64,000 bases of DNA, taken from the NCBI GenBank assembly GCA_025617375.2, contig JAMYGW020000010.1, forward strand, positions 1,426,001 to 1,490,000, in the 5' to 3' direction. This document shows positions 26,131 through 64,000 of this stretch, piece after piece. Within the stretch, counting starts at the first letter, position 1. Every line of letters starts with the position of its first letter. A model generated the notes under the pieces. That model did not search any database. It was not told the origin of the DNA and saw only the letters and a list, made by a program, of their open reading frames with translations. Made by a program: the position numbers and the translations under genes. The DNA is from Acarospora socialis. Its lineage: Eukaryota > Ascomycota > Lecanoromycetes > Acarosporales > Acarosporaceae.

Positions 26131-29100
26131 ATAGCTATCAATAACTTCTAGTCTCTGTTTTTAACATATATTCTATTCATGAAACAAACAACTTGACATC
26201 ATTGACATAGTTCTTGCTTCTAATCTTCACAGAGAGTATAGTGAGTCTGTCAGAGTTGTCTTGCTGTGCACTGCAACTCTCATCATTCTGCATGAATCTT
26301 CTGAGTGTATTTCTAGTCTGTGACTTTTCTGACTTGTCAGATTTAAACTTTGCAGTGATATGAGATTCTTTTTCTATGATGAGTTGATCATCTTATTCAC
26401 TTACTCTTTTCATCTCATCTGCTCTCTCAGTTATCTCTGAAGTGTCTTTGTTCAAATCTTGTTGAGTGCTGTGATTGTGCTGTGTGTGCTGCTTGTTTCA
26501 TCATGTAAGTTTTGTTTTTCAGAATATCTGCACTTTTGACTATCAACTATTTTTGCTTGTCTGAGTTGACAAGATCTTGTGACATGATGTTTCAAAGTAG
26601 CTATACTAGCTTATGACTATGAGATCAGACTATTCTCATGAACAGATTTTAGTCAATGTTAAGACTCAACTCATGTGATGAGAATGCTCTCACTGATCTT
26701 AGCTCAAAGTCTGAAGTTGAAGATGATGACAGAGCAGTAAGTGACAATCACATCAAAATGTCTCTTTCTGTTCTATCATGAACTTTGTTGTCAAGTATTG
26801 ACTAGATATACACTGATGACACACTGCACATATTGCAAAACTCACTACTGAACAAGTCTTCAAACAGAAACTGAGAGAAACAATCATCAGTGATGATGAT
26901 AAACTGAGCTTCACTTTTACAGTTTGTGAGAAGAATCATCTGTAGTTTTATTCTAAGATGATTTTTAACTGTAGTTATAAGAATTGTTGAAGCTCTAGTG
27001 TAAAATGAAGTGATCTAAATAGTTGGTAGTTGATACACAATCTGCTGTATACAGTGACTTCTTGTAAGTCATTGAAACTGTACTTAAACTTTGTTGAAAG
27101 ATGATATTCTGTGCAAAGTGATCAGACATGTTTGCAGTCATTTGAGCAATCTTCTCACTGTTTTCAGATGTAATTATCTGACAAGTGTTTTCAAGCACTT
27201 TCATTTCATTAGTTGTTTTCTCTCACCATTCACTAGCATGAACATCTTTGCTCAAGTGATCACAAAGTTTCTTTTTAGAGTTACTTAAAATGAATGCTGA
27301 CATTAATTCTTCTTCAATTTTCAGCTCTATCTTTCTGTACTATGAATTCTCTTAAGTTACTTGCTTCATTCTGCTCATCAAGTAAACATTATGTTGTTTT
27401 ACTTCTCTTGTGAGTTGTACAACTCTCAATGACACTTTTTTCTTCTTGATTCTTCTCAACTATTCTCAGTTTGAAATTCTGAACTGACAAATTTTTCTGT
27501 TTCTTTTCAGTACTTGAGACAAATCTCATTTCTCAAGTCAGATCAAGTTATCTATGATCACTGCTTTTCTTCTGACACATGCTATATCTTTAAATAATAT
27601 TTGAAAACTTACATTTGTTAACATACTGTTCTTTCTCTGATCAGCTTGCTCACTGTGTAATTACTAGAGTTTAGTGATTAGTGCACAGTTTTGTTGATAG
27701 AGAATGAGCTCATGACTATTCATCAAACTGCTTTTAAGCATTTGAGTATTGTGAGTGTCTCACATGAGACTGAGTTTGTATCAAGATGAACATGAATCAA
27801 AGAAATATTACTTTCATTAAGTTGCTGCAGACTTATCATAATCTTAGTGACTGTCTTCTTAATTTAATAACACTCTGTCTGCTTCATCAGAAATGCATTA
27901 ATTCTTATATGATACTGCTGAGTGATCTGCTTCATGTGAAATTGTATTTTATGAAAATGCTTTTTCTTCTGTATTGAAGAATGACTGTTGCTATGAATCA
28001 CACTTAAAGTTCACAAGTGTCTTGAATTTTCTTTTCTTTTCTTGCCACAGATATTCTAGACATCAGCTCACATATAATTACTTACATTGTGATTAGTATG
28101 AAATCAGATTGTTCTGAAATAAAGACTTGAGAATGATAGTATGTCAGTAAAGTTCATTAACTTTTTTTTAATGATAAAGATTGAACTATTTGTGAGATAC
28201 AGCTTGTTCATTTTCAAAAGAGAAATTCTATAATTATTCTGTTCAAAACCTAAAACATTTATTCTGTTAACAGAGAAATGAAACTACTCTGTGTTTAGAG
28301 CAAGTCTGATCAACATTAATGATGAGAACAGCAATAGTGCAGATACTTCACTAGTGTCTTAAAGATGATGATTTTTTCTCACTTTGTCATTCAGAAATTG
28401 CTAAAACATGAGATGCACTCAGTCTATATCAGACAATGCAGATTCTGAACTTGATAGAATTTTTTTTGTGATGTTGTTTTTATTTAAAGTGAGTAGCTGG
28501 TGTCTCAGTCAGACATTGTTTCAACTGCAGACAACAAAATTAATTTATGAGAAAGTGCAATCTTGTAAGCATGTATTCAGTACAATAGAACTATTCAGAA
28601 TTCATTAAATGCATCTGAATGCTGAAGAAGTTTTGCATGTAATTGTGTAACTTGTTGATGAATTCATTCATTTGATGCATAGAACAGTCAGATTTTGATG
28701 TTTGTGTTGTGTTGAGACAAACACATCAATTATATGCAGCTTTTCACTATATTTCATAAAGATTCTGTTCTGACACTTCACAGACTTTTACTTTCTAACA
28801 GTAGTGTCACAATGCTTTGATAGTATTTGAGCTTTTTGCTGCTTAAAGATGAGACTTGATGATTGTGAAATTCATACTTTGATAGATAGAAATTTTGTGC
28901 TTTATCAAATCAACTCAATATGTAAAAAAATAATTCACAAACAAATCTTTCACAAGTGCAGAAGTCATATCACAATCACTTTCTTGACTTGAGTATCAGT
29001 TAGTGACTCTATCAAATTAGAATGTTGTTAAGCAGTTCAATGAACTCTAAACTACTGATCATAAGTATATTCTCTGTGATTGCTTGAAAGTTGACACTCT

Positions 29101-30481
29101 GTTGAGTATCATAGTTGTTTGACTTCAAGGTTGTTTTCACTTCAGTACATTCTCACTTAGTACACTTTCACTTAATGCTGTATCTGTGATTGACCACTGC
29201 TTCAAATAATATTCAACTGCTTTTTCTCATGATGAGTTATCTTGTTTATATTCATCTTTTTAATTCTATTCATGTCTTACAGTTTATTACAGAATCATTG
29301 TTGATAACATGAGTTCTTTCTTCTTTTGATGACTAAGACATGTCTACTGTATAAATATTGTATTTTGTTACAGCATTTAATTCTGTTTATGATCTTGTGT
29401 TATGACAAATAGTTATATACAAAGACTATTTGTGATTCAGAATAGTGAGATGAAATGAGTTTCATCTATTTTATGTCACTCTCTGCAGCATTGATTTTGA
29501 CTGTATAATTTAGATGACAAACTTTCTCTGATTGCTTGCATCATCTTAAGTATGTAGTTTACTCATAAGTTTTCTGTCTTCTTGAACTACACTGTCTTTG
29601 TTGTTGATTTTGCATCTCTTTCTCAGACATTACTTGTGTCTCTGCATTCTGATCAGTGTGTTGCATTAGTAAAGTTCAGATTTTTAGAACATGAGCTGTT
29701 TGAATATGCTTTGTGCTTCAAATCAGTTTTCTTCTTCTTATTCTCTACTGTCTCTTTCTCTACTTGCTTGATAATTTCTTTTAAAATCTTCTCTGTGCAC
29801 AAGTTCTGATGACTTTCAATGTGTAGTGGCATGTTTTCATCAACTCACATGCAACTTAAGTTAACATCTTCACTAAATGATAAAATAGTCACTTTCATGA
29901 TAGAGACTAAAATGATTGTATTTCTAAGATGACTCACTGCAGTCTGTAGTGATTAATCTAACTCTACTTGACAGTCTCAATACTCTGATCATTGTTGAAT
30001 CATTTGAAGAACTTTTGAGTACAGATCTCTCATTATTGAATTTTATCTTTTCAGCACTTCTTCTATCAGCAATGATGTAAAGTTTTCTTGAAGTCTTAGT
30101 TATCATGCATGTATTTCTGAAAAAGCTTTTGTTAATTGTTCAATTTCAGATTCTCTCATCTCTCAATTGTCTGATGATGACTTGAGAATCAATATTGTGC
30201 TGCTTCTGTCAATGTAGTTATTGCTGCTTGTGAAAATAGTTCATCACTTTTTATCATGTTTCTCACTCTTTACTGATAGTGCATATTTGTTTGATGACTC
30301 TTTTCTGACTTTTACTGAATCTGCTGCAGAAGCTGATGAGTTAGATATAAAATGCTTTGATAACTGAATTGACAGCAAAATAAACAGACAATATTAACTG
30401 TAGCTGAAGCAGATATCATGCTTTCTGTGACTGTAAGAAGCAAGTTTATTCAGTACTTCTTTCAAAACTGTACAAGCTAAC
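26131..30481. other. Mutated sequence without recognisable gene, left of element B
   Basis: All reading frames are short and lack Gly, Pro and Trp because of the mutation pattern. A minus-strand stretch at 26,995-27,204 has coiled-coil-like composition (SENSEKIAQMTANMSDHF), so ancient coding sequence may lie here, but I cannot name a family. No LTR, terminal inverted repeat or tandem array was found by eye. Confidence 0.5.
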
Positions 30482-30829
30482 TGTTACATTCTAACTGAAG
30501 TGTAATGTTCAACCTGAGATTTCTTGAGTAAGTTAGAACTAAAAGTTTGATCTTGTAAATATAAGAGTTTTTTCATACAGTAATTGTCTGATAACTCTTA
30601 GATTGTAACTAGAAGTTGAACATGATTGATTCTCTAAAAGAATCAATTCTACTATATAGAACTGACATGTTCATCATGTTCTGCAAAACTTCATGTTCTT
30701 TGTTTTGATAGTGTCTCAGCACTATTGCATGCTTTGTTAAGTTTTGTGCTTGTCATCTCATGTTCTCACATATATCTCTCTGATCATATGTCTGAGACTG
30801 TTTATATCTTTTTCAGTATAATTATAACA
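30482..30829 (-). repeat. LTR of element B (3' LTR in element orientation)
   Basis: Begins TGTTACATTC and ends TATAACA on the plus strand. It matches 42,426-42,773 over its full 348 bp with scattered transitions. Confidence 0.8.
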
Positions 30830-30911
30830 TCATTTTTCTCTTCTCAGACATCTAGTCTTTAGTGTTTATTTAAACAAGAGTATATATTTCAGCTGCTGTT
30901 CATCATTCAGA

Positions 30912-31335
30912 TTGCTTGACAAATTCAAAAATTGTTTTGTGCTCATTAAAATCATCACTCAGTGTGATGTTGTTTCTTCACTTGTCTGCAAGCATTGCTG
31001 TCACTGTGATATTCTTTGTGTTTGTATGATTGATACTTTTAAGTGCACTGAATATACTCACTGTGATTATTTCTGTATTTTGATGTTTCTTGAGTTATTG
31101 AACTGAGTTCACAAGAAACTTGAGTTTTAGTTCAATAAGACTGAGACTGAGCACACTGCTCAACTTAAAATTCTTTAAAATTTAAACTTTAAGATTTTGC
31201 ATCTTCATGCTACAATAAAACAGAATAAATTTCAAATCTCTCAAAAAGTTCAGTGTGTTGTTGCTGAGCTTGACAGTAATAATGATGAAACAAAGAATGA
31301 AACAAATTCTTCTGCTGAATCAAACATGAATTAAC
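30912..31335 (+). other. Antisense cysteine-rich frame of element B
   Basis: Runs opposite to the element's gag-pol, just inside its 3' LTR. A Cys-rich block (CKHCCHCDILC) gives C-x2-C-x6-C, followed by a second Cys group and a region of helical, Lys/Gln/Glu-rich composition, then an acidic end. The same frame exists in A, C and D. Fossil, decayed. Confidence 0.5.
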
Positions 31336-34300
31336 TTTTAAACTCAATGTCATTATTCTTCTGAAATTCTATTGCTGTCTTTTTTTAAAACATTGAAGTC
31401 TTCTTGTGCAGTTCTTGAGATTTTTCTTGAGTTCTCAGATATTTTCTGAGATATTATAATCTTTTTATTTCACAAGATAGTGAACTTTGTCACTAATCAT
31501 TCTTCTTTTTAAAATGTTTTCAATTTCATATTCTTTATTGAGTTTAACAGACATTTCAGTGATCTGAAGTAATATGAACTGATTGCAGTGCTGTAGCATG
31601 AATGCATAAAATACTGAGTGTATTCTCATTTTTTTGAGTAAATCTAACTCATAACTTAATTCTTTGATGTTTTATACAATCTTAAATGATTCAATGCTCT
31701 TGTTTTTCAGTTTCTTGCTTCTTTTCTTGATTCTTATGTTGTCTGTTTTTAAATATATTTTCTTTTCTTCTTCAAATAATTTTGTCTTTATTATTTGTTC
31801 TGTCTGCTGTTCAATCTGTTTTATTAAATCTTAATGCAGTTTTTTCATTTATGCAATATTTAAAATTATCTTTTAACTCTGTAATCTGTGTCTTTTAGAA
31901 TTTTGTTATATCTTTAAGTTATAATTATAGTTCACAAAGAAAGATGTCTTTTCTGTAATCTCATTCTTCATATTGTTGTATGTAAACTGTATCATTAACA
32001 ACAATTGTACTCAGTTATTCTGATTCTTGTTGACATAGTGTTTTAAGTATGTTTTTATTGTTTAATTTATTCATTTACTCTGTTCATCTATCTGTGAGTG
32101 ATATGCTGTGAACATCTTATGTTTAACTTTGAGTTCTGCTGTAAGCATTTTTCAAAACTTATTTGTAAACAGTTTGTCTCTGTCAGTGATGAATTCTTTT
32201 AATAGTTTATGATTGTTAATCAATTTTTACAGTATAGTATATGTCAACACTGATGCTGTTGTAGTTTCTTTGAATGAAATGAACATTGTGTACTTAATTA
32301 ATCTGTTCACTATGATCAATATATTATTCAATTTTATCTTTCATGTCAAATTCTTTGATGATGATAACTTCATAATGAAGTTCATAGTAACTGACTTTCA
32401 TAATGCATTCAGTGCATTTAGTTATATTACTTTGTCATACTATCTGTCTCAGTTGATCTTATTTCTTTGACATAAGTTGTATACAGTGATCATTTTGATG
32501 ATTCAGTTTCTAAAATCATCAATATTGCATTTTCTTCACATTAAATTCTCTATGTGTTTAACTTTTAGATATTTTCTGACTCTGCTGTGATAACACATCT
32601 TGATGAGTTCTTTATTTATTAAGAAAGTTTGCTTCATCTTATACATTACTGCTAAGTCTTTTGTGAGAATTTTGTTTCTGTCTTTGCTGAGAATTCTGAC
32701 ATGAACTCATTTCATTTTCTCATGATTAAATTGTTTACTCAGAGTGTTTACTTCATTATTCTCATTACTTTTCTTGTAATGAATCTGAAATTCAAAGTTT
32801 AATAATTGCTTCATTCAACAAATCTGTTGTCAGTTAAGCTGCTTTGTTGTTGCAAAGTTTCTCAAGTTCTTATGATTTATATAGATCTGAATTGACTTGC
32901 TTGTTTTTGTAAAATAAAATCTTCAGTTTTATAGTGCTTTCACTATTACAAGAAGTTTTTTATCATGAATCTCATATCTTTTCTTGAATTCTGATAATTT
33001 TCTAGATCAAAACACTATGAGTTCTTGTCATTCATCTTCAATTTAATATAAATATGCATTTACTGTGAAGTCTGAAGCATTGATTTTCAGTAATTTTTCA
33101 TATACTGATTGAAGTATTGTAAGATGTGCTGTTTCACTAAGACTTTTCTTTAATATGTGAATCACTTTTTTCTGTTTCTCATCTCAATATTATTTCTTGT
33201 TTTTTTACATTAGCTGCATGAGAAATTCTGTGATTCTTGTATAGTTTGATACAAACTTTTGATAATAGTTCATTAATTTTAAGAAAATCTGTATCTCTTT
33301 AATCTTTATTAATGTTAATCAGTATTTAACTGTCACTGTTTTTTTTGAGTTCTTCTTAATATATTTAAATCAAATCACATAGTCTAGAAACACAACTTTC
33401 TGAGTTTCAAATCTGCTTTTTAATTCTTTTATGTATAAAGTTCTCTCTTTAAGCTTTTTTAATATTTTGTGCATATGTTTTTAATGCTTCTTAAGATTCT
33501 CTGAATATATCAGAATATTGTTAAGATATATAATTATAAAGTCATTAAGATATTCTCATAATATGTCATTGATTAGTCTCTGAAAGATGATAGATGCATT
33601 TTTTAACTTAAATGACATAATAATATACTCATAATGTTCATATCACATTCAGAATGTCATTTTTCATTCTTTGTTCTTTTTCATTCTGACTCAGTAGTAA
33701 ACATTTTCAAGATTTAAGCTTGTGAATCACTTAATCTTGTTTAATTGATTTTGCAGTTTCTCTATCAACAGTAGTGAGTAACTGTTTTATCTGATTATGT
33801 TGTTCAGCTGTTAATAATCAACATATAATCTTTTGCTGTCATTCTTTTTTAATACAAACAGAATCAGATATTTTGCTGATGACTTTGATAATTTGATGAA
33901 TTCTCTCTTTAGATTCTCATCAAGATAGTTTTAAACTATCTTGAGTTGATCTTTGCTCATTGAGTATATTGATATTCACTTAGATTGTTTCTTTTTCAAT
34001 AGTGATATTTTATGATCTCATGACTTATATTTCAATAAGTATATTTTTGATATCTTCAAGATCTCATATATGTGTTTCATGACACATATTTTTTCTGTAC
34101 TTCAGTCAATTTGTGAATTTTAATTTCTTAGATATGACATTTCAAGTATCATGTTGTACTTGTCTGTTTTGAGTACATTAAATGTTATTTCTTAATGTTA
34201 TTCACTGACATTCATCATCACATGTACTTTTTCATTAACATGTTCAATGACTTCATTTGTCATATGTATCTTCACTAAATACAGTGTTCATATAGTTCTG

Positions 34301-34739
34301 AGTTCTAGTTTTTCAACTAGTTTCTTTAAAATATAGTTGTTTATTGCTTTTAAATCTATCAGAGCATCAATGATTTTTAACAATTAATTTTCTTAATTAA
34401 TATTTGCTTAAATCATAAGTCTATCTTCTTCATTTACTTCATGAAATATATAAAGCTTCTTTTTCTTTAGTCTCATTAAGAAAGCTCATAGTTTTTTAAC
34501 TTACTCAATCATTCAGTTCATCTTCAAAGCTCTTGAAATTATCTAAGTTTTCTTTTAACTATCAGATTCACATACTTTAGACTGTGCTGTTCAATGTGTT
34601 TTTTAGATGAAGTTAAGATTTATACTGATTGTACTTTATCTGTAACTGATTCTCAAAGACTTTTACTCTTTGCAGAAATTTAAGTAATATATACTCTTCA
34701 CTGAAAATTTATCTATTCTCATTCTGCATAATATATTCT

Positions 34740-35091
34740 TGTTATGATCAAGTCAGAATAAACTTAGAACAAACTGATGTGTACATGTAAAAGATGTACA
34801 TTCAGAAAAATGTTTAGACAGCAGTTATGTGATATCTCAACATGCTTAATAATGAACTTGACAAGCAAGCTCAACAGATTGCATAAACAAGTCATCTCAA
34901 CAGACTTAACAACAAGATCAGCAAGCAGACTCACTATATAGTAGAATCATTTCTTTTATGAAAATAATCATATTCAACTTAAATAACTATCTAAGAGTTA
35001 AAGATCAGAATCATTTCAGATTAGTTGTTATATCAATAAGCACAAACTCTTAGCTCTACATACTTGAGAAATCTCAGATTAGAATGTTACA
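34740..35091 (+). repeat. 5' LTR of element A
   Basis: 352 bp, starts TGTTATGATC, ends AATGTTACA. It pairs with 40,547-40,898 at equal length. Confidence 0.88.
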
Positions 35092-38000
35092 CTTTGAACA
35101 TTCTTATGATATAATAAATATGATGTTTGACACACAGAAGAACATCTCAACTTTGTTCTTGAAACAAGTTCAGACAAATTCATCTCTATCATTTATTTTA
35201 AATAGAATGATGACACAATCAGCAATGTCAGTCTTGATAATACAACTATCTGTGAATGCATCAAAGATATAGATATCAGATATCTTTGATGAAGAAAGAA
35301 AAAAACTGTGAGTTTTTGTGACAAAACTCAATCTATACATTGAATTCAATCAACTGAAGTTTCAAACTGATCAAGAAAAGACATTGTTTGTGATGATCTA
35401 TCTCATGAATGCAGTCTTTAATTGAGTTAATCTCAAGCTGCATGAGTTTTTAGAAAAAGAATATGAAGAATGCAACACAGACATGAAGTCTATGTTCAAT
35501 AACTATGAACAGTTTAAAGAGAAACTCAAAAAAGTCTTCAGAATAATTGACAAAAAAAGAGCAGCAGAGAAATAAGTTTATATTTTGCAACAGAATGAAT
35601 CAGCAGCAGTATACATCACAGAGTTTCAGTAATTAACAGTATTTATCAGATGAGACAACAAAACACTTATCTATCAGTACTATTGTGAGTTGAGAGAGTT
35701 TATCAAAGATGAAATAGTCTGAGCAAAACAATCAGACAATCTTCAGAAAATGATTGATCTGAGTATCAACATTGATAGTTATTAATGAGAATGACAAATG
35801 AAACAAAAAGAATATTAAATGTCATCTATAATAAAAGATCAAGAAGAAAGCTTCTGATTGTGAATGAAGCAATATGTTTTATTAATAAGACATAGAGAGA
35901 CAGACTCTATGAATCTTGATGTGATTGAGAAGTGTTGTCAAAAGTCATAAAAGACTAGATAAGTGAAGCATGAATGTCAGTCAGAGTGATTCACTAAGTC
36001 TCAGATAATACTGCAAAACAAAATATGAATGTGTTACAACTGTAAGAAACTCAAACATCTTGTTTAAGAATGCAATAGATCTCAGATAAAAAGAAAAAAT
36101 GTTGCAGTGATAGTTAAGAAAAATATATGTGTAGTGCATGACACTCTCAACTGAACAGTCTGTTACAATGACATGTGCAGAGTATACATGAACACAAAAA
36201 ATAAAGCTGAATAGTACTCTCAGAAACTGCACAAAGATGTGAAAAATAAATATGACATGATGAGTTAATCAATCTACAAGAAAAAATTAACTATTCTTAT
36301 CAAGAAAAGAGTTCTTAATGTCAAGAAAGAAGATAATATTCTTGAAGATGACATTGAAGAAACTGATGATCATGAATTTCAGATTGATGAATCTTGAATA
36401 TTTCTTAATAATGACATATTTGCAGAAGAAAGTTTAGATGATGCTGAGACAGAATTCTTGAGAAAATATTAAACAAAAATTGAGAGAGATCTAAGTGTTC
36501 AAAGAAAAGCAACATCAATCAGCAAGAAGATGCTGAAGAAGAAAGTAAAGATATATAAATAATTTGATGATTTAATGAGAGATGTACAAACAATTATGAG
36601 AGAACTGATGTCAAAACTTCTTGTGTGAAAAATCAAGAGTCACAAGATTGAAATATGTTTATCTGAAGAATATATCATGCAGAATGAAGATAGATGAATC
36701 TTCAGTGAAGAATATATATCATTAGAATTTCTGTAAAGAGTAAAAGTCATTGAGAGTCAGTTGCAGATAAAATATAATCAGTATGAATTCTGACTACATT
36801 CAGAAAGATATATTGAGCAATATAGTTTAAAGTATGTGAATCTTATGATTGAAAGAGAATTAAGATAATTTTAAGAACTTTGAAGACAAGCTGAACAATT
36901 AAGTGAGTCAAAAAATAAAAAGCTTTCTCAACAAGACTAGAGAACAAGAAGCTAGTGATGTTTCAAAGACAAAACAATGATCATCAATTATGAATCAAAA
37001 TTATGATCAATGAACATCAGATCAATGCATTGATGAATTTTGAAGTGAATGATAATATCATAAGTCAATGAATAATCAACATGTTGAAATTAGTGACACA
37101 GCAAGTGTGCTGTTCATTTAACATATGAATGATAAATGAAGTTATTGAAAGAATCAATGAGAAAATTTGTGTGAAAGTCTCAATTCTTGAAAATTCACAA
37201 GAGATAATGTTTAATGTTATGAAATTAATCAGATATGATGCAATACTAAAGATATCTTAACTGCATAAAAAGAATCTGAAAATCAATTGAGTCACAAAAG
37301 AGATATATGCAGTCAAAGATGCATATAAGATTTCTGAACAATCAGAAATGAGCTTATTAGAGTATAAGTCATGAAATCATGAAATACTGCTATTGAATGA
37401 GAAGCAATTTAAGTGAATGCTGTTATACTCAATGAGCAAGAATCAACTTAAGAAAGTTAAAACTTATCTTGATGAGAATCTCAGAAAAGAATTCATAAAA
37501 TCATTAAAGTCATTAATAAAATATCTGATTCTGTTTGTATCAAAGAAGAACAGTAAGAAATAACTATGTGTTGATTACAGACAACTTAATGAAATAACTC
37601 ATCAGAATAATTATTCTCTACTGTTGATAGAAGAGTTGCAAGATCAGTTAAATAAGACTAAATGATTCACAAGTTTAGATCTTAAGAATGTCTACTATCA
37701 AGTTAAAATGAAAGAAGATAAAAAGTGAAAGACAGCATTCTGAACAAAATATAAACATTAAAAATACACTGTTATGCTGTTTGAACTGAAGAATGTTTCA
37801 GTCATCTTTCAAAGATTAATTGATGACATATTGAGAAAATATCTTGATGATTTTGTGATCATGTATCTTAATGATATTCTGATATACTCAGAGAATCTTG
37901 AAGAGTATTGAGAGCATATACACAAGATATTGACAAAGTTCAATGAGAAAGTTCTGTATGTGAAAAAGTCAAAAAGCAGATTTGAAATCAGAGAAGTTGA

Positions 38001-39999: not shown

Positions 40000-40468
40000 T
40001 GTTTTAAAAAAAAAAGTCAATATTAATTCAGAAGAATGATGATATTGAGTTAATAAGTTATGACATTGTTTGAGAATTTTTATTCTCAATTTCATCATTA
40101 TCACTATCAAGTTCAACAGCAAGACAGTCAGTCTTCTGTGAAGCACAGCAGTTTGTTTGATTCAGTGTTTTTTAAAGATATATGACTTTTGAGAAAAGTG
40201 CAGCAAGCTCAGTGTGCTTGATTGTCAATTCATCATTTATTTTACTTATTTTCTTCTGAAGCAAAAGACAAGTTCTATTGAGAGACTCTTACAATACATC
40301 AACACATGAATGATCATGACAAGTACACTTATCACATTTTGATCAAGATTTCATTACAAAACAGTCAATGTTGCAATGAGCACAATAGTCACAAGAGAAC
40401 AGAACAGACACATCATCAATCTGAATTTTCTTTGCAATTCTTAGATGATTGAAATTTTTAGAAAACAT
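40000..40468 (-). other. Antisense cysteine-rich frame of element A with Zn2Cys6-like spacing
   Basis: Lies between the chromodomain and the 3' LTR, opposite to gag-pol. The Cys spacing is C-x2-C-x6-C-x8-C-x2-C-x6-C, which fits the fungal Zn(II)2Cys6 consensus. A helical region and an acidic Ser/Asp/Glu stretch follow. Counterparts occur in B, C and D at the same place. Decayed. Confidence 0.55.
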
Positions 40469-40546
40469 TGTCACTGATGATGAACAATGTAAATATTCTT
40501 GCTTATATAGATTCTAGAAAATTAACATCTGAAGAGAAAAAAATAA

Positions 40547-40898
40547 TGTTATGATTAAGTTAGAATGAACTTAGAACAAACTGATGTATATATGCAGAAG
40601 ATGTACATTCAGAAAGATATTTAGACAGTAATTATGTAATATCTTGATATGCTCAACAGTGAGCTTGATGAGCAAGCTTGACAAGTTGCATGAACAAGTC
40701 ATCTTGATGAGCTCAATGATGAGATCAGCAAGTAGACTCACTATATAGTAGAATCATTTCTCTTATGAAAATGATCATGTTTAACTTAAATAACTATTTA
40801 AAAGTTAAAGATCAGAATCATTTCAGATCAGTTATTATATCAATAAGCACAAACTCTTAGTTCTACATATTCAAGAAATCTCAGATTAGAATGTTACA
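40547..40898 (+). repeat. 3' LTR of element A
   Basis: 352 bp, starts TGTTATGATT, ends AATGTTACA, followed directly by the ATTCT target duplicate and resumed element B sequence. Confidence 0.88.
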
Positions 40899-49075: not shown

Positions 49076-49153
49076 TGTCACTGATGATGAACAATGTGAA
49101 TATTCTCACTTATGTAAACTTTAAAGAACTAGCATCTGAGAAGAGAAAAATGA

Positions 49154-52400: not shown

Positions 52401-55121
52401 CAGTGCTTTTTGATGTCACAAGTCTAAGTTGAATTGAACTTGTTTTGTGTTGCATGTAAAACAAACTCACATTCAACTATCACTAATGCAAATCAGACAA
52501 AGATTAAACTTAAAAAATTGATCAGATTAACTTACAGCAGCATACAGATTAGAAAAATCTGAAGAATGTAAAGTACAAGCAGCTTTATCAGCTGAACTAA
52601 GTCATAAAGTTGTGAGTGAAGCATGCAAACTTAATAAACACTTTAAATGACTGTGACAGCACTCTGAATCTTGATTGTGCAGTTGTGTCAAAAGAAAAGA
52701 GACTTAATCTTCTTGAAATCTTACTCTGATAAAATATCTGATTGTTGATTATAATTAGTTAACTTGTAATCTGTTTCTTTTGATAATCAATGATTGTTTC
52801 TTGACATAATGTGAACAATGTTGCAACTTTGCTTGTCAAACAAACTTAATTGTTACTGAATAAAACAACAACTCTCTCATTACAACAACAGCATTGATGT
52901 TAGTCTGTGATAGTTTTTCAAGTTTGATGATTTTATTTAATTAACTCAGTTATCTGTCAGTGCAGCAAGACTGAGTGTTTCAATGATGCTATTAAGTTAT
53001 CACAGTCACTAAAGTTATCATTTTATCTACTGTAGCACAATCACAGAAGTGACTTCACATCATAACAAAGAAATCTTGTTATTAACAAAACAAATAAATA
53101 ACAGTTTAGTCTAGACATCTCTCTAAAAGCAACATGCTTAAGATGATTGATTCATTGTAGTTTTTATTGACATTGACAACTTGTCTGTTATCTAGATGAC
53201 ATTATGTTCTTGTGAGATTTCTCAAGATATTCAAAGAACATTATCTGAACTTAAGTACTCTAACATTGTTATTTAATCACTCTTTCACTCTATTTCTATT
53301 TGTATGCAGATCTCAAGTGACTGCTTTAATTATTAATTCATTTTTTTCAAAGCATTAGTGTTACAATTGAAGATGACAGTCATTCTTGTTGACATAATGT
53401 CTTTTATGACAGTGAAAAGATAACATTAACAATATATATGCAACAGAAGCAGAGCAAAAACAGACAGTGATAAGACATCAGTTTAAAGTTCAATCAGCAA
53501 AGTAACAACAGCAAGAACAGTTTCTGAGTGTCACTTAACAGAAAAAGATGATGATGCAGTTAAAATGTACAATAAAGATGTTAATTATAGAGCAGAAAAA
53601 TCAGTACTGAATAATAAGAACTGAGAGTGTGTCAGAAGATGTAGTAGCACATTGTGGTATTTTCTAGAAAATGAGTGCTATGCTCATAATGATGATAATC
53701 TTTTAAAATGAATTAACTCTTTAGTGTCATTGATCATGAAAAGACAGCAAAATAGTAGGTGAATTGTGATTCTGTATGTCATTGTTTGATATAACTGTTT
53801 TGATTTATTTTTGACAAAGTATCACTACTCAATGAAGATAACATACTATTAACATAATCAGCAGCAGTCAATCATACATTTAAATAACTCAGTCTCAGCA
53901 TTATCATTTGAAGTCTACTGACAGCTGAGAACTTAGTTTACTCTGTCATATAAGATAATTGTGAATTTAACTGTTTGCTCAATTATTTTGAAATCAACTC
54001 TATTTAAGTGCTTAACTATCACACATTTAAACAAGTCATGATACAGATCATCAATCACTGATCTATTTATTTAAATAATGATTTAACTTTTTAATATTTT
54101 GCAGAGATATAAAGAACAAGTAATGACTAACTTGCACACAAAATGATTTCAAAAGATCATACAAGAAGAAATCTGCATGTCACTCTGCAAGTTCTTGCAC
54201 TATTGCAAGAAGAAATAAGCTATCAATTTAAAATCTACATCAAATTCAATTCTAGAACTCAGCAACACATGATTTTTATTTTTGTTTTGTGATGTACTTG
54301 TTGATTAAGATATAGAACACACTCATTATGATATTAATGATGGTGAAAAAAGAACATTGACAAGAAAAAAAAATTAATAATCAATTCTTCACAGATTAGT
54401 AAAAGATATCAGAAGTCAGTTTAAACAAGAAACTACTGTTGATGTGAAAGAAATGTTGATGAGAAAAAAAAATCAATAATTAATTCTTCACAAATTAATA
54501 AAAAATATCAGAAGCTGACTTGAACAAGAAACTGCTGTTGATGTAAAAAAGATGTTGATGAGAAAAAAAGATAAACAGTTAATTCTTTACAGATCAGTAA
54601 AAGATATTAGAAGTCAGCTTAAATGAGAAACTGCTGTTGATGTAAAAGAAATGTTGACAAGAAAAAAAAAATAAACAACTAATTCTTTACAAATTAATAA
54701 AAGATATCAGAAGCTGACTTGAATGAGAAACTGTTGTTAATGTGAAAGAAATGTTAACAAGAAAAAAAAGTAAATAACTAATTCTTTACAGATCAATATA
54801 AGATATCAGAAGCTGACTTGAATGAGAAACTGCTGTTGATGTAAAAGAAATGTTGATGAAAATAAGATATTAAAAGTCTCTGCTGAACAGATTGATAGTT
54901 TATTTTCTTGAAGATAATTGATTTATCATCAGGTTTGTGAAAGCAGACATATGCTTGTTGAGTGAAGACTTATACTACATTAGCTGCTATGAAATTCAAA
55001 GAACAAGCTACTTATCAGTGATGTTTCTTGAATACTTCATGACTGCACATGAAAATCTTGATCAACTTGCTTAAGATATATAACATCAATTAAGATATAA
55101 CTGTGATTATTTCTTACATTG
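49484..55121. other. 5.6-kb mutated sequence without recognisable gene
   Basis: No LTR or named domain was found. Short frames only. A few more GG/CC survive here (51,651-55,400) than in the elements. It contains the 99-bp tandem repeat, whose period and composition suggest a former coding region. Confidence 0.55.
54352..54855 (+). repeat. 99-bp tandem repeat, about five copies
   Basis: The anchor word ATGTTGAY/ATGTTAAC recurs at about 54,453, 54,552, 54,651, 54,751 and 54,850, with a related start at about 54,354, so the period is 99-100 bp. 99 is a multiple of three, and one frame gives a 33-residue helical, charged unit (for example ETAVDVKEMLTRKKK) in successive copies. Confidence 0.75.
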
Positions 55122-55473
55122 TGTTATGATCAAAGTCAGAATGAACTTAAAGCAAACTAATGTATACACACAGAAAGTGTACATTCAGAAGAATGTTTAA
55201 ACAGTAGTCATGTAATATCTAACATGCTTGACAGTGAGCTTGACAAGCAAGCTCAACAGACTGCATAAGTGAGTCATCTTAACAAACTCAATGACAAGAT
55301 CAGCAAGCAGACTCATTATATAGTAGAGTCATTTCTCTTATGAAAACAATCATATTTAACTTAAATAACAATCTAAAAATTAAAGACCAAAATCATTTCA
55401 GATCAGTTGTTATATCAATAAGCACAAACTCTTAGTTCTACATATCTGAGAAATCTCAGATTAGAATGTTACA
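55122..55473 (+). repeat. 5' LTR of element D
   Basis: 352 bp, starts TGTTATGATC, ends AATGTTACA. Same length and layout as the element A LTRs. Confidence 0.88.
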
Positions 55474-58400
55474 CTTTGAACATTCTTACAATATAATGAG
55501 TATGATGTCTGACACACAAAAGAATGTTTCAATCTTGTTCTTGAAACAAGTTCAAGCAAACTCATCTCTATCATCTACTTCAGATAGAACAGCAACACAA
55601 TCAGTGATGTTAGCTCAGATAATACAACTATTTGTGAATGCATTGAAGATTCAGATATTCAATATTTTTGGTGAAGAATGAGAAAAATTGCAAGTCTTTG
55701 TGACTAAGCTCAATCTGTATATTGAATTCAATCAATTGAAGTTTTATACTGATCAAGAAAAGACATTGTTTGCAGTAATCTATCTAGTAAACACAGCTTT
55801 CAATTGAGTTGATCTCAAGCTGCACAAATTTCTAGAGAAGAGTTACAATGAACACAATGTTGACATGAAGTTCATGTTCAATGACTTCAGCAAGTTCAAA
55901 AAAAAACTTAAGAAAATCTTCAGAATAATCAACAAAGAGAAAACAGCAGAAAGACAAGTTCATATCTTGCAACAGAGTGAATCAGCAGCAGTATATGTCA
56001 CAGAGTTTCAGCAATTAGTGACACTTATTAGATAAAATAATGAAGCACTTATCTATCAGTACTATTGTAAGTTAAGAGAGTTCATCAAAAACAAGATAAT
56101 CTGAGCAAAACAATCAGATGATCTTCAGAAAATGATTAATCTGAGTATTAACATTGATAGTTGTCAGTGAGAATGACAGATAAAACAAAAAAAATATTGA
56201 ATGTCATTTATGATAAAAGATCAAGAAGAAAGCTTCTGACTGTGAATGAAGCAATATATTTTATTGATAAGACATAGAAAAACAAACTTTATGAATCTCA
56301 ATACAATTGAAAAACATCATCAGAAGTCATAAAAGACTAAATGAACAGAGTATAAATGTCAGTCAGAGTGATTCACTAAGTCTCAGATAACACTGCAAAA
56401 CAAAATGTGAATGTATTATAACTGTGAGAAATCTGAACATCTTGCTTGAGAATGCAACAGATCTCAGATGAAAAGAAAAAATATTGTAGTGACAGTCAAA
56501 AAAAATACATGCATAGTGCACAACATTCTTAGCTGAACAGTCTGTTACAATGACATGTGCAGAGTACATATAAACATGAAAAATAAAGCTAAATGATATC
56601 TTCAGAGACTGCACAAAGATGTGAAGAACAGATACAATGCAATGAGTTAATCAATTTACAAGAAAGAATTAGTTATTCTTATCAAGAAAAGAGTTCTTGA
56701 TGTCAAGAAAGAAAACAATGTTTTTGAAGATGACATTGAAGAGACTGATGATCATGAATTTCAGATTGATGAATCTTAAATATTTCTTGATAACAATATA
56801 CTTGCAGAAGAAAGTTTGAACAATGTTGAGACAGAGTTCTCAAAAAAGTACTGAGCAAAGATTGAGAAAGATTTAAGTGTCAAGAAAGAAACAGCATCAA
56901 ACTGCAATACAATGCAGAAGAAAAAGCAAAAGACTTGAAATCAGAAAGTGAAAATATACAAAGAATTCAATGATCTAATGAGAAACATACAAACAGTCAC
57001 AAGAGAATCAATATCAGAATCTCTTGTGTAAAAGATCAAAGATCACAAAATTGAGATATACTTATCTGAAGAATATATCATGCAGAATAAAAATAGATGA
57101 ATTTTCAGTGAAGAATATATATCATCTGAATTTCTGCAAAGAGTAAGAGTCTTTGAGAGTTAATTGCAGATAAAGTACAATCAGTATGAATCTCAATTAC
57201 ATCTTAAAAGATGCATTGAGCAACACAGTCTAAAGTATGCAAATCTTATAATTAAAAGAAAATCAGAATGATTTCAAGAGCTTTGAAAATAAGCTGAATG
57301 ACTGAGTGAGTCAAAAAATGAAAAGCTTTCTTGACAAGACTAGAGAACAAGAAGCTAGTGATGTCTCAAAGATAAAATAATAATCATTGAATATGAATCA
57401 AGATTATGATCAATAAACATTAAATCAACACATTAATGAATTTTGAAGCAGACAGTAATATTATAAGTTGAAAAACAGTCAACATGTTGAAATTAAAAAC
57501 ACAGTGAGTGTGCTGTTCATTTAACATACAAATGACAAATGAAGTTATTGAAAGAATTGATGAGAAAATCTGTGTGAAAGTCTCAATTCTTGAAAATTCA
57601 CAAGAGATAACATTTAATGTTATGAAATCAATTAAATACAATGCAGTGCTAAAGATGTTCTGATTGTGCAGAAAAAATCTGAAGATTGATTGAGTTACAA
57701 AAAAGATATGTGCAATCAAAAACACATATAAAATTTCTGAACAATCAAAGATGAACTTATCAGAGCATAAATCATGAAATCACAAGATATCACTATTGAA
57801 TGAAAAGCAACTTAAGTGAATGTCATTATACTCAATGAGCAAGAATCAACTCAAGAAAGTTAGAACTTATCTTGACAAAAATCTTAAGAGAGAATTCATA
57901 AAATCATCAAAATCATCAACAGAATATTCAATTCTGTTTGTATCAAAAAAGAATGATAAAAAATGACTATGTGTCAATTACAAACAATTCAATGAGATAA
58001 CTCATCAAGATAATTATTCTCTATCACTGATAGAAGAGTTGCAAGATTAATTAGACAAAACTAAGTGATTCATGAACTTAGATCTTAAAAACATCTATTA
58101 TCAAGTCAGAATGAAAGAAGATAAAGAATGAAAGATGACATTCTGAACAAGATATGAACATTATGAATATATTATTATGTCATTTGAATTGAAAAATGTC
58201 TCAGCAATTTTTCAGAGATTGATCAATGACATATTAAGAGAATATCTCAATGATTTTGTGATCACATATCTTAATGATATTCTAATATACTCAGAAGATC
58301 TTGAGAAGCACTGTGAGCATATGCACAAGATATTGACAAAGCTTAATGAGAAAGTCTTGTATATGAAAAAGTCAAAAAGCAGATTCAAGATCAAGAAAGT

Positions 58401-60419
58401 TAAATTTCTAGACTATGTGATTTGATCTGAACAAATTGAGAAAAATTTAAAAAAGACAAAAGTAGTCAGAAATTGACTGACATCAAAATGAATCAAGAAA
58501 GTACAGGTCTTTCTAGAACTAATGAACTATTATTGAAAGTTTGTATTAAACTATGCAAGAATTATGAAATTGTTAATGTGTTTGATGTGCAAAAGCAAAA
58601 AATAGCATTGAGATCAAAAACAGAAGAATGCATTTCACATATTAAAGAAAAGTTTTAGTGAAATGACACATCTGAGAATACTCAATTCAACATACAAGAA
58701 AACACTGAAAACTGATGCTTCAGATTTCACAATAAAAACATGTTTGTATCAGATTGAGAATGAGCAGCAGAAACTCATAGCATATTGATTTAAAAAACTA
58801 TCAGAACTCAAGAAAAGATATGAGATTCATGATAAGAAACTTCTTGCAATAGTGAAAACACTACAAAATTGAAGATTTTATTTTACAGAAACAAGCAAGC
58901 TAATTCAGATCTATATAAATCACAAGAATCTGAGAAACTTCACAATGACAAAACAACTCAATTAACAACAGATTTGTTGAGTGAAGCAGTTGACAGACTA
59001 TGAATTTCAAATTCATTACAAAAAAAATAATGAGAATGACAGAGCAGATATCTTGAGTAGACAACTTGATCATGAAGATGTACAAACAATACACACTGAA
59101 ATTTTGAGCAAAGATAACAAAGAAATTCTCATGAAGAGCTTGACAGCAATGTACAAGATGAAGTAAACTTTCTTAACAAACAAAGAACTCATCAAAATAT
59201 ATCATTACAGCAGAGCTGAAGAACATCTAAAAGTTAAATGCACTGAGAATTTAGTGTGAAGAAGATACAACATTAGTAATTTCAGAAATTAAGTCATCAA
59301 AATGATTGCTGTATGTGATTCATGCTGAAGAAACAAGATTAACTGAAATAAATAATATGACAAAGTAATGCAACTAAATGCACTGAATGCATCATGAAAG
59401 TCAGTTATCATGAACTTCATTACAAAGTTATTATCATCAAAGAACTCAACATGAGAAGTGAAATTCAACAGTATATTGATCATAGTAAACAGATTAATCA
59501 AGTACACAATGTTCATTTCATTCAAAGAAACTGTGACAGCATCAATATTGACATATATGATATTAAGAGAATTGATTAGCAATTATGAACTATTAAAAGA
59601 GTTTATCACTGACAGAGACAAACTGTTTACAAACAAATTTTGAAAAATGTTTACAGCAGAACTTGAGATAAAGTATAAGATATCAATGACATATCATTCA
59701 CAGATAAATGAACAAAGCAAATGAATGAATTAAACAGTGAAAACTTACTTAAAACACTATGTCAACAAAAATCAGAACAACTAAGTATGACTACTGTTAA
59801 TGATACAGTTTGTGTACAACAATATGAGAAATGAAATCATGAGAAAGACATCTTTCTATATGAACTATAACTACAACTCAGAGATATAACAAGATCTCAA
59901 AGAACACAGATCATAGAGTCAAAAAGTGATTCTAGATATTGCTTAAATAAAGAAACTGCATTAAAATTTAACAAAATGAATTGAACAGCAGACAGAATGA
60001 GTAATAGAGACAAAACTGTTTAAAGAAGAAAAGAAGATATATTTAAGAACAGACAACATACAAATCAAAGAAAAAAGCAAGAAATTGAAAAACAAAAACA
60101 TTAAATCATTCAAGATTATACAGAACATCAAGAAATTAAGTTATGAGTTAAATTTATTTAAGAAGATGAGAATACACTCAGTATTTCATGCATTCATGTT
60201 ACAACATTGCAATCAATTCATATTACTTCAAATTATCAAAACATCTATCAAACTCAAAGAAGAATATGAAGTTGAAAATATTCTAAAAAAGAGAATGATT
60301 AATGAGAAAGTTTACTATCTCATAAAATAAAAAAATTACAATATCTCAGAAAGTATCTGAAAACTCAGAGAGAATCTCAAGAACTGTGCAAGAATACTTC
60401 AATGTTTTGAGAAAAAAAA

Positions 60420-60871
60420 TCAATATTAATTCAGAAGAATGACAACATAAAGTCAACAAGTTATGACATTGTTTGAGAATCTTCATTCTCAGTTTCATCA
60501 TTATCATTATTAAGTTCAGCAACAAGACAGTCAGTCTTTTGCAAAACACAGTAATCTGTTTGATTCAGTGTTTTCTGAAGACACACAACTTTCAAAAAAA
60601 GTGCAGCAAATTCAACATGTTTAACTGTCAGTTCACTGTTCACTTTACTTATTTTTTTTCAAAGCAAAAAACAAGTTCTATCAAGAGACTCTCACAATAC
60701 ATTGACACACAGATGATCATGATGAGTATATTTATTACATTTTGATCAAGATTTCATTACAAAACAATTGATGTCACAATGAACACAATAGTCACAAGAG
60801 AACAAAGCAGATACATCACTGATCTGAATTTTCTTTGCAATTTTTAAACAATTGAAATTTTTAAAAAGCAT
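60420..60871 (-). other. Antisense cysteine-rich frame of element D
   Basis: Opposite to gag-pol, ending just inside the 3' LTR. Begins MLFKNFNCLKIAKKIQI and has C-x2-C-x6-C (CDYCVHCDINC) as in A and C. Fossil. Confidence 0.5.
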
Positions 60872-60950
60872 TGTCACTGAAGAACAAACAATGTGAATAT
60901 TTTCATTTATATAGATTTTAAAAAATTAACATCTGAGAAAAAAAGAATAA

Positions 60951-61303
60951 TGTTACAACTGAAGTCAGAATGAACTTAGAACAGATTGATGCATATATGT
61001 GAAAAGTATATATTCAGAAAGATGTTTAGACAGTAGTTATGTGATATCTCAATATGCTTGATGATGAGCTTGATGAGCAAACTTGATGAACTGCATGAAT
61101 GAGTCATCTCAATGAACTTGACAGCAAGATCAGTGAGCAGACTCACTATATAGTAGAGTCATTTTTCTTATGAAAACAATCATGTTCAACTTAAGTAACA
61201 ATCTAAGAGTTAAAGATCAGAATCATTTCAAATCAGCTGTTATATCAATAAGCACAAACTCTTAGTTCTACATACCTGAGAAATCTCAGGTTAGAACATT
61301 ACA
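60951..61303 (+). repeat. 3' LTR of element D
   Basis: 353 bp, starts TGTTACAACT, ends CATTACA, followed by the CATTG target duplicate. It keeps CC at 61,276 and GG near 61,290 where the 5' LTR has lost them. Confidence 0.88.
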
Positions 61304-64000
61304 CATTGTTGCATTTTAAAAAATCACAGCTATCTTTATATACATTTGCAGAATTACTGTACAAAGTAAAAAATGCTCTTCTTATATGTACAGAGTGCAG
61401 TATGAACAAGAATTCAAAACACTTTGAAGCACTGAGCACATCAGATTCACAAATCAGATTATGCAAGAAATCAACAGTTAGCTAAGAAAGTAACTGCAGA
61501 ATTCTCAGGTTCAGATGCAATTATAGTTTAATTATGCAAGAAAAAAGTCATGCACAACAATACTCAAGTCACTTCATCATCACATATTGTTGCAGCAAAA
61601 GTCATCAACTGAGAATATCATCTAAGTCTGATCAGATTACTGAAGTACTCAATATTCTGCTGAGAACTAAGCTGTGACAGACTTTCTTGAATGCAAGAAG
61701 AAAAATCAATAAGTATCAAACTTTTAAAATCTATCTTGATAACTGCAGATTCTTTTATTGAGAGAACTATTGATCTTGACTATGAATCAATATTGAATCA
61801 AGAGCAGTTGAGTTGAGAAGATCTGAAACAGCTTGAATTTTATGTTATCTTTGACTATATCACTATATCAAAGCTCTTGTTTAGATCATACTGATTGAGA
61901 AAGATATGAAAGTATCAAGAAAAAGATGCTTCATAAACATCAAGACAGAAAATTAAATCATCAAGCATGTTCATACATCAGCAGTACTACTCTCTAATCA
62001 ACTATGACAATGCAAGTAAAACTGAAATTGCACAGAGCTTGAACTCAATACAACTGAGTAAAAAGAACTTGAAATTACTGATGTAATCTTTTGTTTCAGT
62101 TACAGATCTTTTATCTTGTCACAATTACAATAAGAAAAATTATCTGTCTCAATAGCAAGCTGCAATAACTGACTCAGAGAATTGATTCATTGAGTTTTCA
62201 CAGTCTGAAAAATTTCTTCAACTTTCTCACTTCAAGACTTCTTATTTCATAACAACATTATCTGTGATGATTTCTAGTTGATGAGTGTGAACAACAAGTA
62301 TAGTCAAGTGAGTGACACTTCATATTGCTCATCTAACATTCTTCAAGTCAATTGATGAGTTTGACTTTAATCAGTTTGATCACTTTCATTCAGTCATGTC
62401 ACATATAACTTTAATGTCAGTCTTTTATTCTTCAACAGTGAAACACATTTTGTTGTAAAATCATTTTCTGACAACATACAAATTTCATATCTGTGTCTGA
62501 AAAGCAAAGCTTAAGTGAGTTAGACTATCATGATGCTTGAGTTTTGAATTGAATCATCATCATATGCATTTCTCACTGCTGCACAAATATTCACATGATG
62601 TTATCAGCTGTCAGTTAAGAAATGAAGAAAAAGATAATGCTGAATATCTTTGCTGAAGAAACTGTGATTCTATATGATGATAGTTCAGTTTTAAGTAATT
62701 CTGTTAATAGTTCAAGAATATGTCAGAATACTAGTTCTGACAGACAACAGAACTCAGAGTTATTGTGAGAACAGAGTTACTTTCAATTGCTTGACACTGA
62801 CTGTCAGATTGATAAGTCTTGAAAAAGAACATTCTGTTGTTGTGAGATTCTTATAATGTTCACTGAGAAGTTACAGTGTTGTCATCATAATTCATGCTTA
62901 CTTCTCAAAGCTTGCAATAATCTCATTCATCACACTGTTGTGAACTAATCAGAATCTTGTATTTGAGAAACATTGTCAAGTGTCAACTGAATTGTGTCAC
63001 TGCTTTCACAAGAATGTGTACTTGCTTGTTCAATGAAGTAACTCAACTATCAGTAAATCAACAACATCAACTAGTAACTCACTCTACAACAAAGCTGTGC
63101 CTATTAAAAAAGAAGACTTTGACAGAGAAAGAACTTGATGAGAATAAGAGAGTATATAGATTTATGAATGAAAAGACTGCTTAGACTTGTTTCATAAGTT
63201 TATTTTAGTGCTCAATAGTGAACATCTAGTCATTTCTTTTGATTGATTTGAGAAACTTGATTATCTTTTTTCACACAACATTTAAAAGAGTGTCAATGCA
63301 GCAACAAGAGACAATGCAGCAAACAGAATGATCATCAGTCATCAATAGTAAAAAGTTGAGCAGATTTCACAAACAAAAGTCAGTGTATCAGAAAGTTCAT
63401 ACAATGATTATTTCAAAGTTGAGCTTCAAGAACATGCTCATAATTGTTAAGATCAATATTCAAAGACATATTGAAGATCATATCAACAAGAGATCATGTT
63501 CATCTCAGCATTCTCACATCAATCACTGTGTTTTTTCTTTTCTTCACTACACAAAGACACTGCAACACTCTTTTGAAGACAACAAAGATTCATCTTGAAG
63601 ACATGACATCTTGCTGAATCAACATTGTCATATTGCTCTTTGCAGAACTCTGAAGAGTTAGTGACTAATGTTGAGACATAATATTCTTGATTCTTGCTCA
63701 TCTCATAACACTGAGCAGCTTTCATTCAAAAGTTCTTCTGATGGTTCTTTCTTCATGATCTTGCTATATCATCTTTTTGAATTAATCACTTGTTGAGATT
63801 TCTGATTTCTTCAATCATCAGCAAGTGTTGCTGATTGCAGAGTATACTTGCATTGATATTCAGACAGAAGATTGTGATTGAACATGTTGTGAAAGATTAA
63901 GACTTGACTTTCACAAGCAGTTGCAGTTCTATCAAAGATTTTCTGACCACTCTTGTAACTAATGTACATGAGTGTATGATTACACAAATCTGAACTCTAA
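61304..64000. other. 2.7-kb mutated sequence right of element D
   Basis: No gene, LTR or tandem repeat recognised up to the window end. Plus-strand frames at 62,957-63,184 and 63,356-63,598 are open and charged but match nothing I know, and their openness is partly a product of biased composition. Confidence 0.5.

Follow-up and report, generated by a model that had tools for sequence, protein, structure and literature searches.

The question raised by this locus is how some 38 kb of DNA beside ordinary fungal genes could come to be almost without C followed by C or G (CpS) on either strand. Within the window (the whole stretch of 64,000 nucleotides analysed here), positions 26,131-64,000 (37,870 bp, 28.5% GC) contain 0 CG, 10 CC and 16 GG, and the near-erasure of CpG, CpC and GpG claimed in an earlier sequence-only reading is thus borne out. 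At the density of the left flank (positions 1-24,000, 52.0% GC) the block should hold 2302 CpG, 2241 CpC and 2533 GpG, about 7000 in all, of which 26 are left; the minima over 200 mononucleotide shuffles of the block are 704 CG, 678 CC and 749 GG. That reading had also forecast observed/expected ratios below 0.05 for these dinucleotides and near or above 1 for CA, TG and GC, and the counts agree, with 0.014 for CC, 0.020 for GG, 1.53 for CA, 1.56 for TG and 1.04 for GC (the others being 1.25 for both CT and AG, 1.39 for TC, 1.38 for GA and 0.62 for TA). The flank has 0.90 for CG, 0.93 for both CC and GG, 1.10 for CA and 1.13 for TG. A run of 38,573 bp free of CG begins at 25,428 and lasts to the end of the window, the longest such run in 1-24,900 being 120 bp, and 20,407 bp from 30,514 lack any CG, CC or GG. 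The erased block continues past the right end of the window. Its components and left-hand neighbours are as follows.

22538-24172, plus strand: 3' part of an MRE11 gene (Pfam Mre11_DNA_bind, 1.1e-62; the best solved chains are MRE11 proteins)
24950-26150, no strand: gradient from ordinary DNA to the erased block (CpG disappears ahead of CpC; CpA/TpG raised)
26131-64000, no strand: CpS-erased block (counts and GC content as above)
26131-30478, no strand: inter-element segment 1, erased (CC+GG 1.84 per kb, CG 0; no Pfam match)
30479-42773, minus strand: Ty3/Gypsy element BE, from self-comparison, interrupted by element A
About 30479-30829 and 42423-42773: LTRs of element BE (45 transitions, 2 transversions between them)
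34740-40898, plus strand: Ty3/Gypsy element A, from self-comparison, nested in BE (LTR pair 50 transitions, 1 transversion)
43364-49464, plus strand: Ty3/Gypsy element C of the BE subfamily, from self-comparison (LTR pair 41 transitions, 0 transversions)
49468-55121, no strand: inter-element segment 3, erased (CC+GG 1.41 per kb; no Pfam match)
54363-54859: tandem array in segment 3 (99-bp unit, about 5 copies)
55122-61303, plus strand: Ty3/Gypsy element D, with Pfam domains broken by stops (LTR pair 63 transitions, 0 transversions)
61309-64000, no strand: inter-element segment 4, erased (CC+GG 1.49 per kb; no Pfam match)

The block thus consists of four Ty3/Gypsy retrotransposons (26-29% GC), one nested in another, and of DNA of no recognised origin. 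Perfect 5-bp target-site duplications flank element A (ATTCT, 34735-34739 and 40899-40903) and element D (CATTG, 55117-55121 and 61304-61308); no clean duplication was found in the letters flanking element C, one of whose two LTRs carries a deletion. Parts of BE resemble element C on the opposite strand (654 transitions and 54 transversions between B and C, 294 and 28 between C and E). Element D matches RVT_1 (3e-17), RT_RNaseH_2 (1.4e-17), RT_RNaseH (3e-16), SH3_Tf2-1 (3.7e-11) and the zinc-binding Integrase_H2C2 (9.9e-06), along with, below the curated cut-offs, Chromo (5.2e-05; 23.5 against 25.1 bits) and Retrotrans_gag (0.00098); its Pfam scan listed no match to the integrase core. Judged by LTRs, 5-bp duplication, reverse transcriptase-RNase H-integrase order and C-terminal chromodomain, elements A, BE, C and D would be classed as Ty3/Gypsy chromoviruses.

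Some 13 kb of the block (26,131-30,478, 42,774-43,363, 49,465-55,121 and 61,304-64,000) is unrepeated within the window save for the tandem array, yet equally erased, and that this window-unique DNA was also targeted as repeats is an assumption on our part. A search for relics of host genes in three of these four segments (26,131-30,478, 49,468-55,121 and 61,309-64,000), all six frames being translated with stops written as X, gave no Pfam match at E 0.1; 10 of the 72 listed open reading frame fragments of at least 60 amino acids in the block were scanned singly. Of the recognised host genes MRE11 lies closest, about 0.8 kb to the left of the gradient, and the window also carries genes for a TRF telomere-binding protein, a histidine phosphatase, ankyrin proteins and 5S rRNA, a gene content that points to a filamentous ascomycete. 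A tRNA scan of the window in bacterial setting found none, nor was the telomere repeat TTAGGGTTAGGG found with up to one mismatch allowed.

The copies record how the erasure came about. Summed over the four LTR pairs, there are 199 transitions and 3 transversions in 1373 positions, which argues for fast hypermutation and against slow decay; the units of the tandem array, all pairs compared, differ by 153 transitions and 10 transversions. Elements A and D differ by 1028 transitions and 42 transversions over 6159 aligned positions. Sorted by context (gapped columns and transversion-bearing pair classes being excluded here and in the fits below), the A-D differences comprise 367 CT/TT, 260 CA/TA, 4 CC/TC and 0 CG/TG. 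The sequence-only reading had named changes lying mainly at CpA as evidence against itself, and taken literally the tally goes half that way, CpT and CpA both being prominent. This is an artefact of saturation: as every copy has lost its CpG, such a naive tally points to CpT and CpA. The right signal is in the 149 paired sites with TG in one copy and CA in the other, an arrangement that implies an original CG. At these sites the third copy, C, reads CA at 51, TG at 46, TA at 29 and CG at 0 of 143, and copy B reads CG at 0 of 76.

Simulations with one C-to-T dose per 3' base, fitted to the table of A-D dinucleotide pairs, give doses of 0.13-0.14 for CpA, 0.25-0.29 for CpT, 5.5-6.9 for CpC and 3.5-11.5 for CpG, the last being at least 3.5 and poorly bounded above; the fitted starting GC of 0.51-0.55 compares with 0.52 in the flank. 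The older pairs C-B and C-E give 0.23 for CpA and 0.25-0.37 for CpT. Neither CpA nor CpT is depleted in the block, but the nonzero doses, like the 260 CA/TA and 367 CT/TT differences, correct the claim that the two were kept: both were also hit, if weakly. The rule based on the 3' base (negative log-likelihood 19810) is preferred over one that targets the second C of CC (20062) and over CpG plus uniform CpH (20453). Methylation-linked mutation with CpG alone preferred and the other contexts alike does not describe the block, since CC and GG are erased too and the last-named fit is worse by about 640 log units. A fit restricted to CpS came close with coarse time steps (19890 against 19810, with a starting GC of 0.775), an artefact of letting a single step mutate a CpG on both its strands; fine steps put it at 20554 against 19817 for the full model (25 and 60 evaluations, respectively). 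The full model predicts 384 identical TA/TA pairs where 310 are observed, the probable cause being that the simulations did not start from the low TpA of real DNA. Effects of the 5' base are weak (relative to T, 0.76 for A, 0.38 for C and 0.83 for G, the three added parameters gaining about 5 log units). The 26 surviving CC/GG contrast with this, 23 being ACC and 3 GCC, with no TCC or CCC.

The left edge of the block provides evidence on the order of preference that is independent of the element copies. The erasure does extend throughout 26,131-64,000 as first described, but it has no sharp start: ordinary DNA passes into the block along a gradient some 1.1 kb long. In successive 250-bp bins CG falls to 0.26, 0.20, 0, 0 and 0 of its level in the flank and CC+GG to 0.60, 0.67, 0.38, 0.48 and 0.13, with CA+TG at 1.15-1.33. 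Against expectations from flank density, positions 25,101-26,130 retain 6 of 125 CpG cytosines (5%) and 55 of 130 CpC cytosines (42%), from which CpG would have been lost about 3.5 times faster than CpC; neither CpA (187, with 143 expected) nor CpT (155, with 138 expected) is depleted. The order of preference is CpG > CpC >> CpT > CpA, the reverse of that of classical RIP. Counts and fits alike support the earlier proposals of C-to-T change before C or G on both strands and of a preference opposite to the CpA type, CpA having the lowest dose of all.

It therefore seems probable that a Ty3/Gypsy cluster in a filamentous ascomycete was inactivated by a RIP-type process preferring C before C or G. 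A C-to-T mutator, guided by homology or heterochromatin, would act on both strands with a preference that depends on the base following the target C, proceed until its preferred sites are exhausted and spill about 1 kb into unique DNA. The retrotransposons and the tandem array would supply the repeat targets. Such a process may be premeiotic and triggered by repeats, and the enzyme responsible may be of C5-methyltransferase type (RID or DIM-2 class) with altered recognition of the 3' base; in vitro activity of RID has not been detected (PMC13297926).

The alternative that survives best, unlikely as we consider it, is a layering of two processes, complete removal of CpG and CpC being joined by ordinary low-level RIP or methylation-linked hits at CpT and CpA. 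One group of doses does lie at about 6 or higher and the other, far below, at 0.14-0.26; hits at CpA and CpT are somewhat more numerous in C-B and C-E, the older pairs; and differences at CpA and CpT could partly come from a second process. A single enzyme of graded preference, however, fits with four rates and the sequence needs no second, and the undepleted CpA and CpT of the gradient leave no sign of a separate CpA process outside the block.

A slow loss through spontaneous deamination of 5-methylcytosine, given heterochromatin that carries methylation at CpG and CpC and no active mutator, seems more doubtful still. CpG is the most depleted context, the same C-to-T change would result, and fungal CpG-type footprints have been tied to methylation and deamination (PMC4352252). 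The LTRs of each pair, identical at insertion, nevertheless have no CpG left at about 0.1% transversion per lineage, which several hits per CpG site exceed by a factor in the thousands. In vertebrates the mutation rate of methylated CpG is only about ten times that of other sites. In Zymoseptoria, moreover, methylated sites are mostly CG and the Dim2-dependent mutations lie at CA (PMC8016269).

That reverse-transcription or replication intermediates were edited by a single-strand cytidine deaminase of APOBEC type is very hard to credit. Enzymes of the APOBEC3G type prefer CC, and retrotransposons would be fitting targets, but the second-C-of-CC rule is worse by about 250 log units and the two strands are hit without runs (67 runs among the 149 A-D sites where 73.9 are expected, P 0.14; none significant in seven copy pairs, P 0.14-0.92), the one of six event-run tests to stand out (z 2.17) tending toward more alternation, away from runs. 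Editing of a retrotransposon intermediate also fits poorly with a gradient outside recognised elements and with an erasure that reaches non-LTR DNA, the tandem array included. Equally implausible is a misreading of classical CpA-type RIP or of plain AT-rich DNA, for although alignment tools would call the naive A-D tally CpT plus CpA type, CpA is undepleted, TpA is low, a site class without survivors cannot differ between copies, and the CA/TG pairs expose the lost CpG.

The RIP-type process with reversed preference matters first for detection, which relies on indices designed for CpA. The block scores 0.694 for TpA/ApT, 1.552 for (CpA+TpG)/(ApC+GpT) and -0.859 for the composite, and is un-RIPped both by the two usual thresholds as quoted in PMC3562529 and by the stricter set quoted in PMC7882544, as the sequence-only reading had predicted of the usual indices. 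An index suited to the footprint, (CC+GG+2CG)/(TC+GA+TG+CA), falls from 0.88 in the flank to 0.0023 in the block. Genome surveys relying on the usual indices alone would count species of this kind as lacking RIP, and once a target class is exhausted the differences between copies name the wrong target. We would suggest, tentatively, that there is a separate class, 'CpS-RIP', in which an enzyme reading a 3' G or C (a re-set RID/DIM-2-type protein or some other) runs to exhaustion; it could have been overlooked so far because alignment tallies and all three indices (product, substrate, composite) score it as negative or as CpT/CpA, and some published verdicts of 'CpT-type' or 'no RIP' could be saturated cases of it. 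With the preference reversed and a dose series at hand (unmutated flank, gradient, saturated block), the origin of the 3'-base preference of RIP becomes testable.

Contexts of RIP were reportedly surveyed by Clutterbuck in 2011. Classical RIP, as in Neurospora crassa and Leptosphaeria maculans, shares with this locus the conversion of C to T in both strands of repeated DNA, copies that diverge by transitions only, blocks of AT-rich retrotransposons and leakage into adjoining DNA; in Dothideomycetes the RIP index is reported to have decayed at a distance of about 2000 bp from repeats (PMC3516569). It differs in raising TpA/ApT and in preferring CpA (90% of sites in L. maculans transposable elements, PMC4352252), whereas here CpA is least affected and CpG and CpC are exhausted. 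The Dim2-dependent mitotic mutation of Zymoseptoria tritici is similar as methyltransferase-linked C-to-T change in repeats, but more than 98% of its transitions are at CA (PMC8016269). CpG is preferred, as here, in the RIP-like mutation of basidiomycetes and truffles (PMC4352252), unlike here without a CpC signature being named in the accessible part of that source; the term CpC is absent from the paper. The GC-poor isochores of Blastomyces, sharply bounded tracts of 30% GC full of Gypsy elements, resemble the block in GC and Gypsy content, the accessible part of their description stating no dinucleotide preference (PMC4595289). Targeting of CpG and CpC has some precedent: a search covering few subscription papers found one, a review according to which repeat-induced mutation in Coccidioides hits 'especially' CpG and CpC and Gypsy elements dominate (PMC9409882). 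Transposable elements there have 28-39% GC, with a mean of 33-34% for Gypsy (PMC5872316), above the 26-29% of the elements described here. The likeness is one of description, its precedent a single sentence of that review, and it lies in the preference itself, CpG and CpC in repeats being the combination found at this locus.

From 26,131 to the end of the window, the DNA has a GC content of 28.5% and holds 0 CG, 10 CC and 16 GG dinucleotides, where 2302, 2241 and 2533 would be expected at the density of the ordinary flank (1-24,000), which confirms the near-erasure of CpG, CpC and GpG claimed in the sequence-only reading. When the bases of the block were shuffled 200 times, the lowest CG count was 704, and CG is absent from 9/9 sub-segments from 26,131 onward. 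The longest CG-free run measures 38,573 bp (120 bp in the flank), and one stretch of 20,407 bp is without any CG, CC or GG. The density of CC plus GG declines from 1.84 per kb at the block edge to 0 in two retrotransposons, A and C. The 26 survivors lie in ACC (23) and GCC (3) but never in TCC or CCC, a distribution of 5' contexts that differs from that of the flank (chi-square P 3e-13); the excess of ACC suggests an effect of the 5' base, which the simulation fit (see below) captured weakly.

Self-comparison of the block recognised four LTR retrotransposons, listed here with a tandem array:

30,479-42,773, minus strand: element BE, split by A into parts B and E
34,740-40,898: element A, with a perfect 5-bp target-site duplication
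43,364-49,464: element C, without a clean target-site duplication
54363-54859: tandem array in erased DNA, 99-bp unit, ~5 copies, not a retrotransposon
55,122-61,303: element D, with a perfect 5-bp target-site duplication

Element D, translated with X at each stop, matches the Pfam reverse transcriptase, RNase H, integrase zinc-binding and Tf2-1 SH3 domains over the cut-off and the chromodomain and gag under it, and on these domain matches is a Ty3/Gypsy element of chromovirus type. Two Gypsy subfamilies are present, A/D and BE/C (351 transversions for A-C, 42 for A-D, 54 for C-B); the nesting of A in BE makes the A/D type the more recent arrival here. In six-frame translation, three of the four inter-element segments were without a Pfam match.

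Both LTRs of an element are identical at insertion. The pairs now differ by 50 transitions and 1 transversion in A, 41 and 0 in C, 63 and 0 in D, and 45 and 2 in BE, or 199 and 3 over 1373 aligned positions. Differences between A and D (1028 transitions, 42 transversions) and among all pairs of the five array units (153 and 10) are likewise mainly transitions. As every CpG has gone while transversions touched ~0.1% of sites per lineage, an active mutator is needed.

Read from the end state, the target is a C before C or G. The A-D differences (CT/TT 367, CA/TA 260, CC/TC 4, CG/TG 0) would at face value suggest a preference for CpT and CpA, but such plain counts are misleading because CpC and CpG sites are exhausted. 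Lost CpG sites reveal themselves where one copy has CA and the other TG, which occurs 149 times in A-D; at 143 of these sites C carries CA (51), TG (46), TA (29) or another dinucleotide (17) and never CG, and B has CG at 0/76. When random evolution of a sequence, with one rate for each of the four possible 3' bases, was fitted to the A-D pair table and reproduced it, the C-to-T doses (fitted load per context) were ~0.14 for CpA, ~0.26 for CpT, ~6 for CpC and at least 3.5 for CpG, the last with a poor upper bound. The fit put the starting GC at 0.51-0.55, near the 0.52 of the flank, a value not supplied to it, and pairs C-B and C-E gave an identical order of context groups with a higher CpA dose (0.23). 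Identical TA pairs are fewer (310) than the model predicts (384). Other rules did worse: by ~250 log units for a rule targeting the second C of CC, by ~640 for CpG plus uniform CpH, and by ~740 for CpG and CpC alone in fine steps, a run whose optimisation was short. By the fitted doses, CpA and CpT were also hit, at some 20- to 40-fold lower strength than CpC. The core of the earlier interpretation, C-to-T erasure at C before C or G, in reverse of classical RIP, is right, but it has to accommodate this weak mutation of CpA and CpT and the existence of a precedent.

From 1 to ~24,900 lies ordinary nuclear DNA (GC 52%), whose genes include:

9697-11939: TRF/Myb telomere-binding protein gene (Pfam: TRF, E 4.8e-72; Myb-like just under the cut-off)
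20,478-20,597: complete 5S rRNA gene, alone between protein genes

Isolated 5S genes are the arrangement of fungi with dispersed 5S genes. Further genes encode a histidine phosphatase, an ankyrin protein and MRE11, the closest solved-structure relatives of the last being MRE11 chains, among them that of Chaetomium. This gene content points most probably to a filamentous ascomycete as host. The TRF-type gene is ~11 kb away from the MRE11 gene, and the G-rich kilobase 13001-14000 has 164 GG dinucleotides, the maximum among the 64 one-kb bins of the window.

The block grades into normal DNA over ~24,950-26,150, and this gradient is a dose series independent of the copy comparison. Within 25,101-26,130, the CpG cytosines number 6 against ~125 expected and the CpC cytosines 55 against ~130, without depletion of CpA (187 vs 143 expected) or CpT (155 vs 138); from these remaining fractions, CpG was lost ~3.5 times faster than CpC. 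CpC survival is again best for ACC (21/~31 vs 34/~99 in the other three contexts). The spread of ~1 kb is consistent with the RIP leakage described in Dothideomycetes, which extends as far as ~2000 bp (PMC3516569).

The choice of strand at the lost CpG sites is not clustered in A-D (67 runs vs 73.9 expected, P 0.14) or in the six other pairs (P 0.20-0.92), which makes a single processive sweep by a single-strand deaminase less likely. Many independent hits on duplex DNA, in one or more rounds, fit this unclustered choice. A RIP-type mutator preferring a 3' C or G is the best-supported explanation; we infer that it would act premeiotically, depend on repeats in this host and be the work of a C5-methyltransferase-type enzyme (RID or DIM-2 class).

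The expectation that the usual indices would miss the block was borne out. TpA/ApT is 0.694, the substrate index 1.552 and the composite -0.859, un-RIPped on every index and by both threshold sets, those quoted in PMC3562529 (TpA/ApT >0.89, substrate <1.03) and PMC7882544 (TpA/ApT >1.15, substrate <=0.75, composite >0). Classical RIP prefers CpA (PMC2621366, PMC4352252), and the Dim2-dependent mutator of Zymoseptoria hits CA in >98% of cases (PMC8016269). Dnmt1 subclasses are tied to CpG, CpT and CpA signatures in PMC4352252, a paper in which CpC is unmentioned. The block is an extreme, new form of a known process, and would be largely known already if the host were Coccidioides, in which, according to a review (PMC9409882), repeat-induced mutation falls 'especially' at CpG and CpC.
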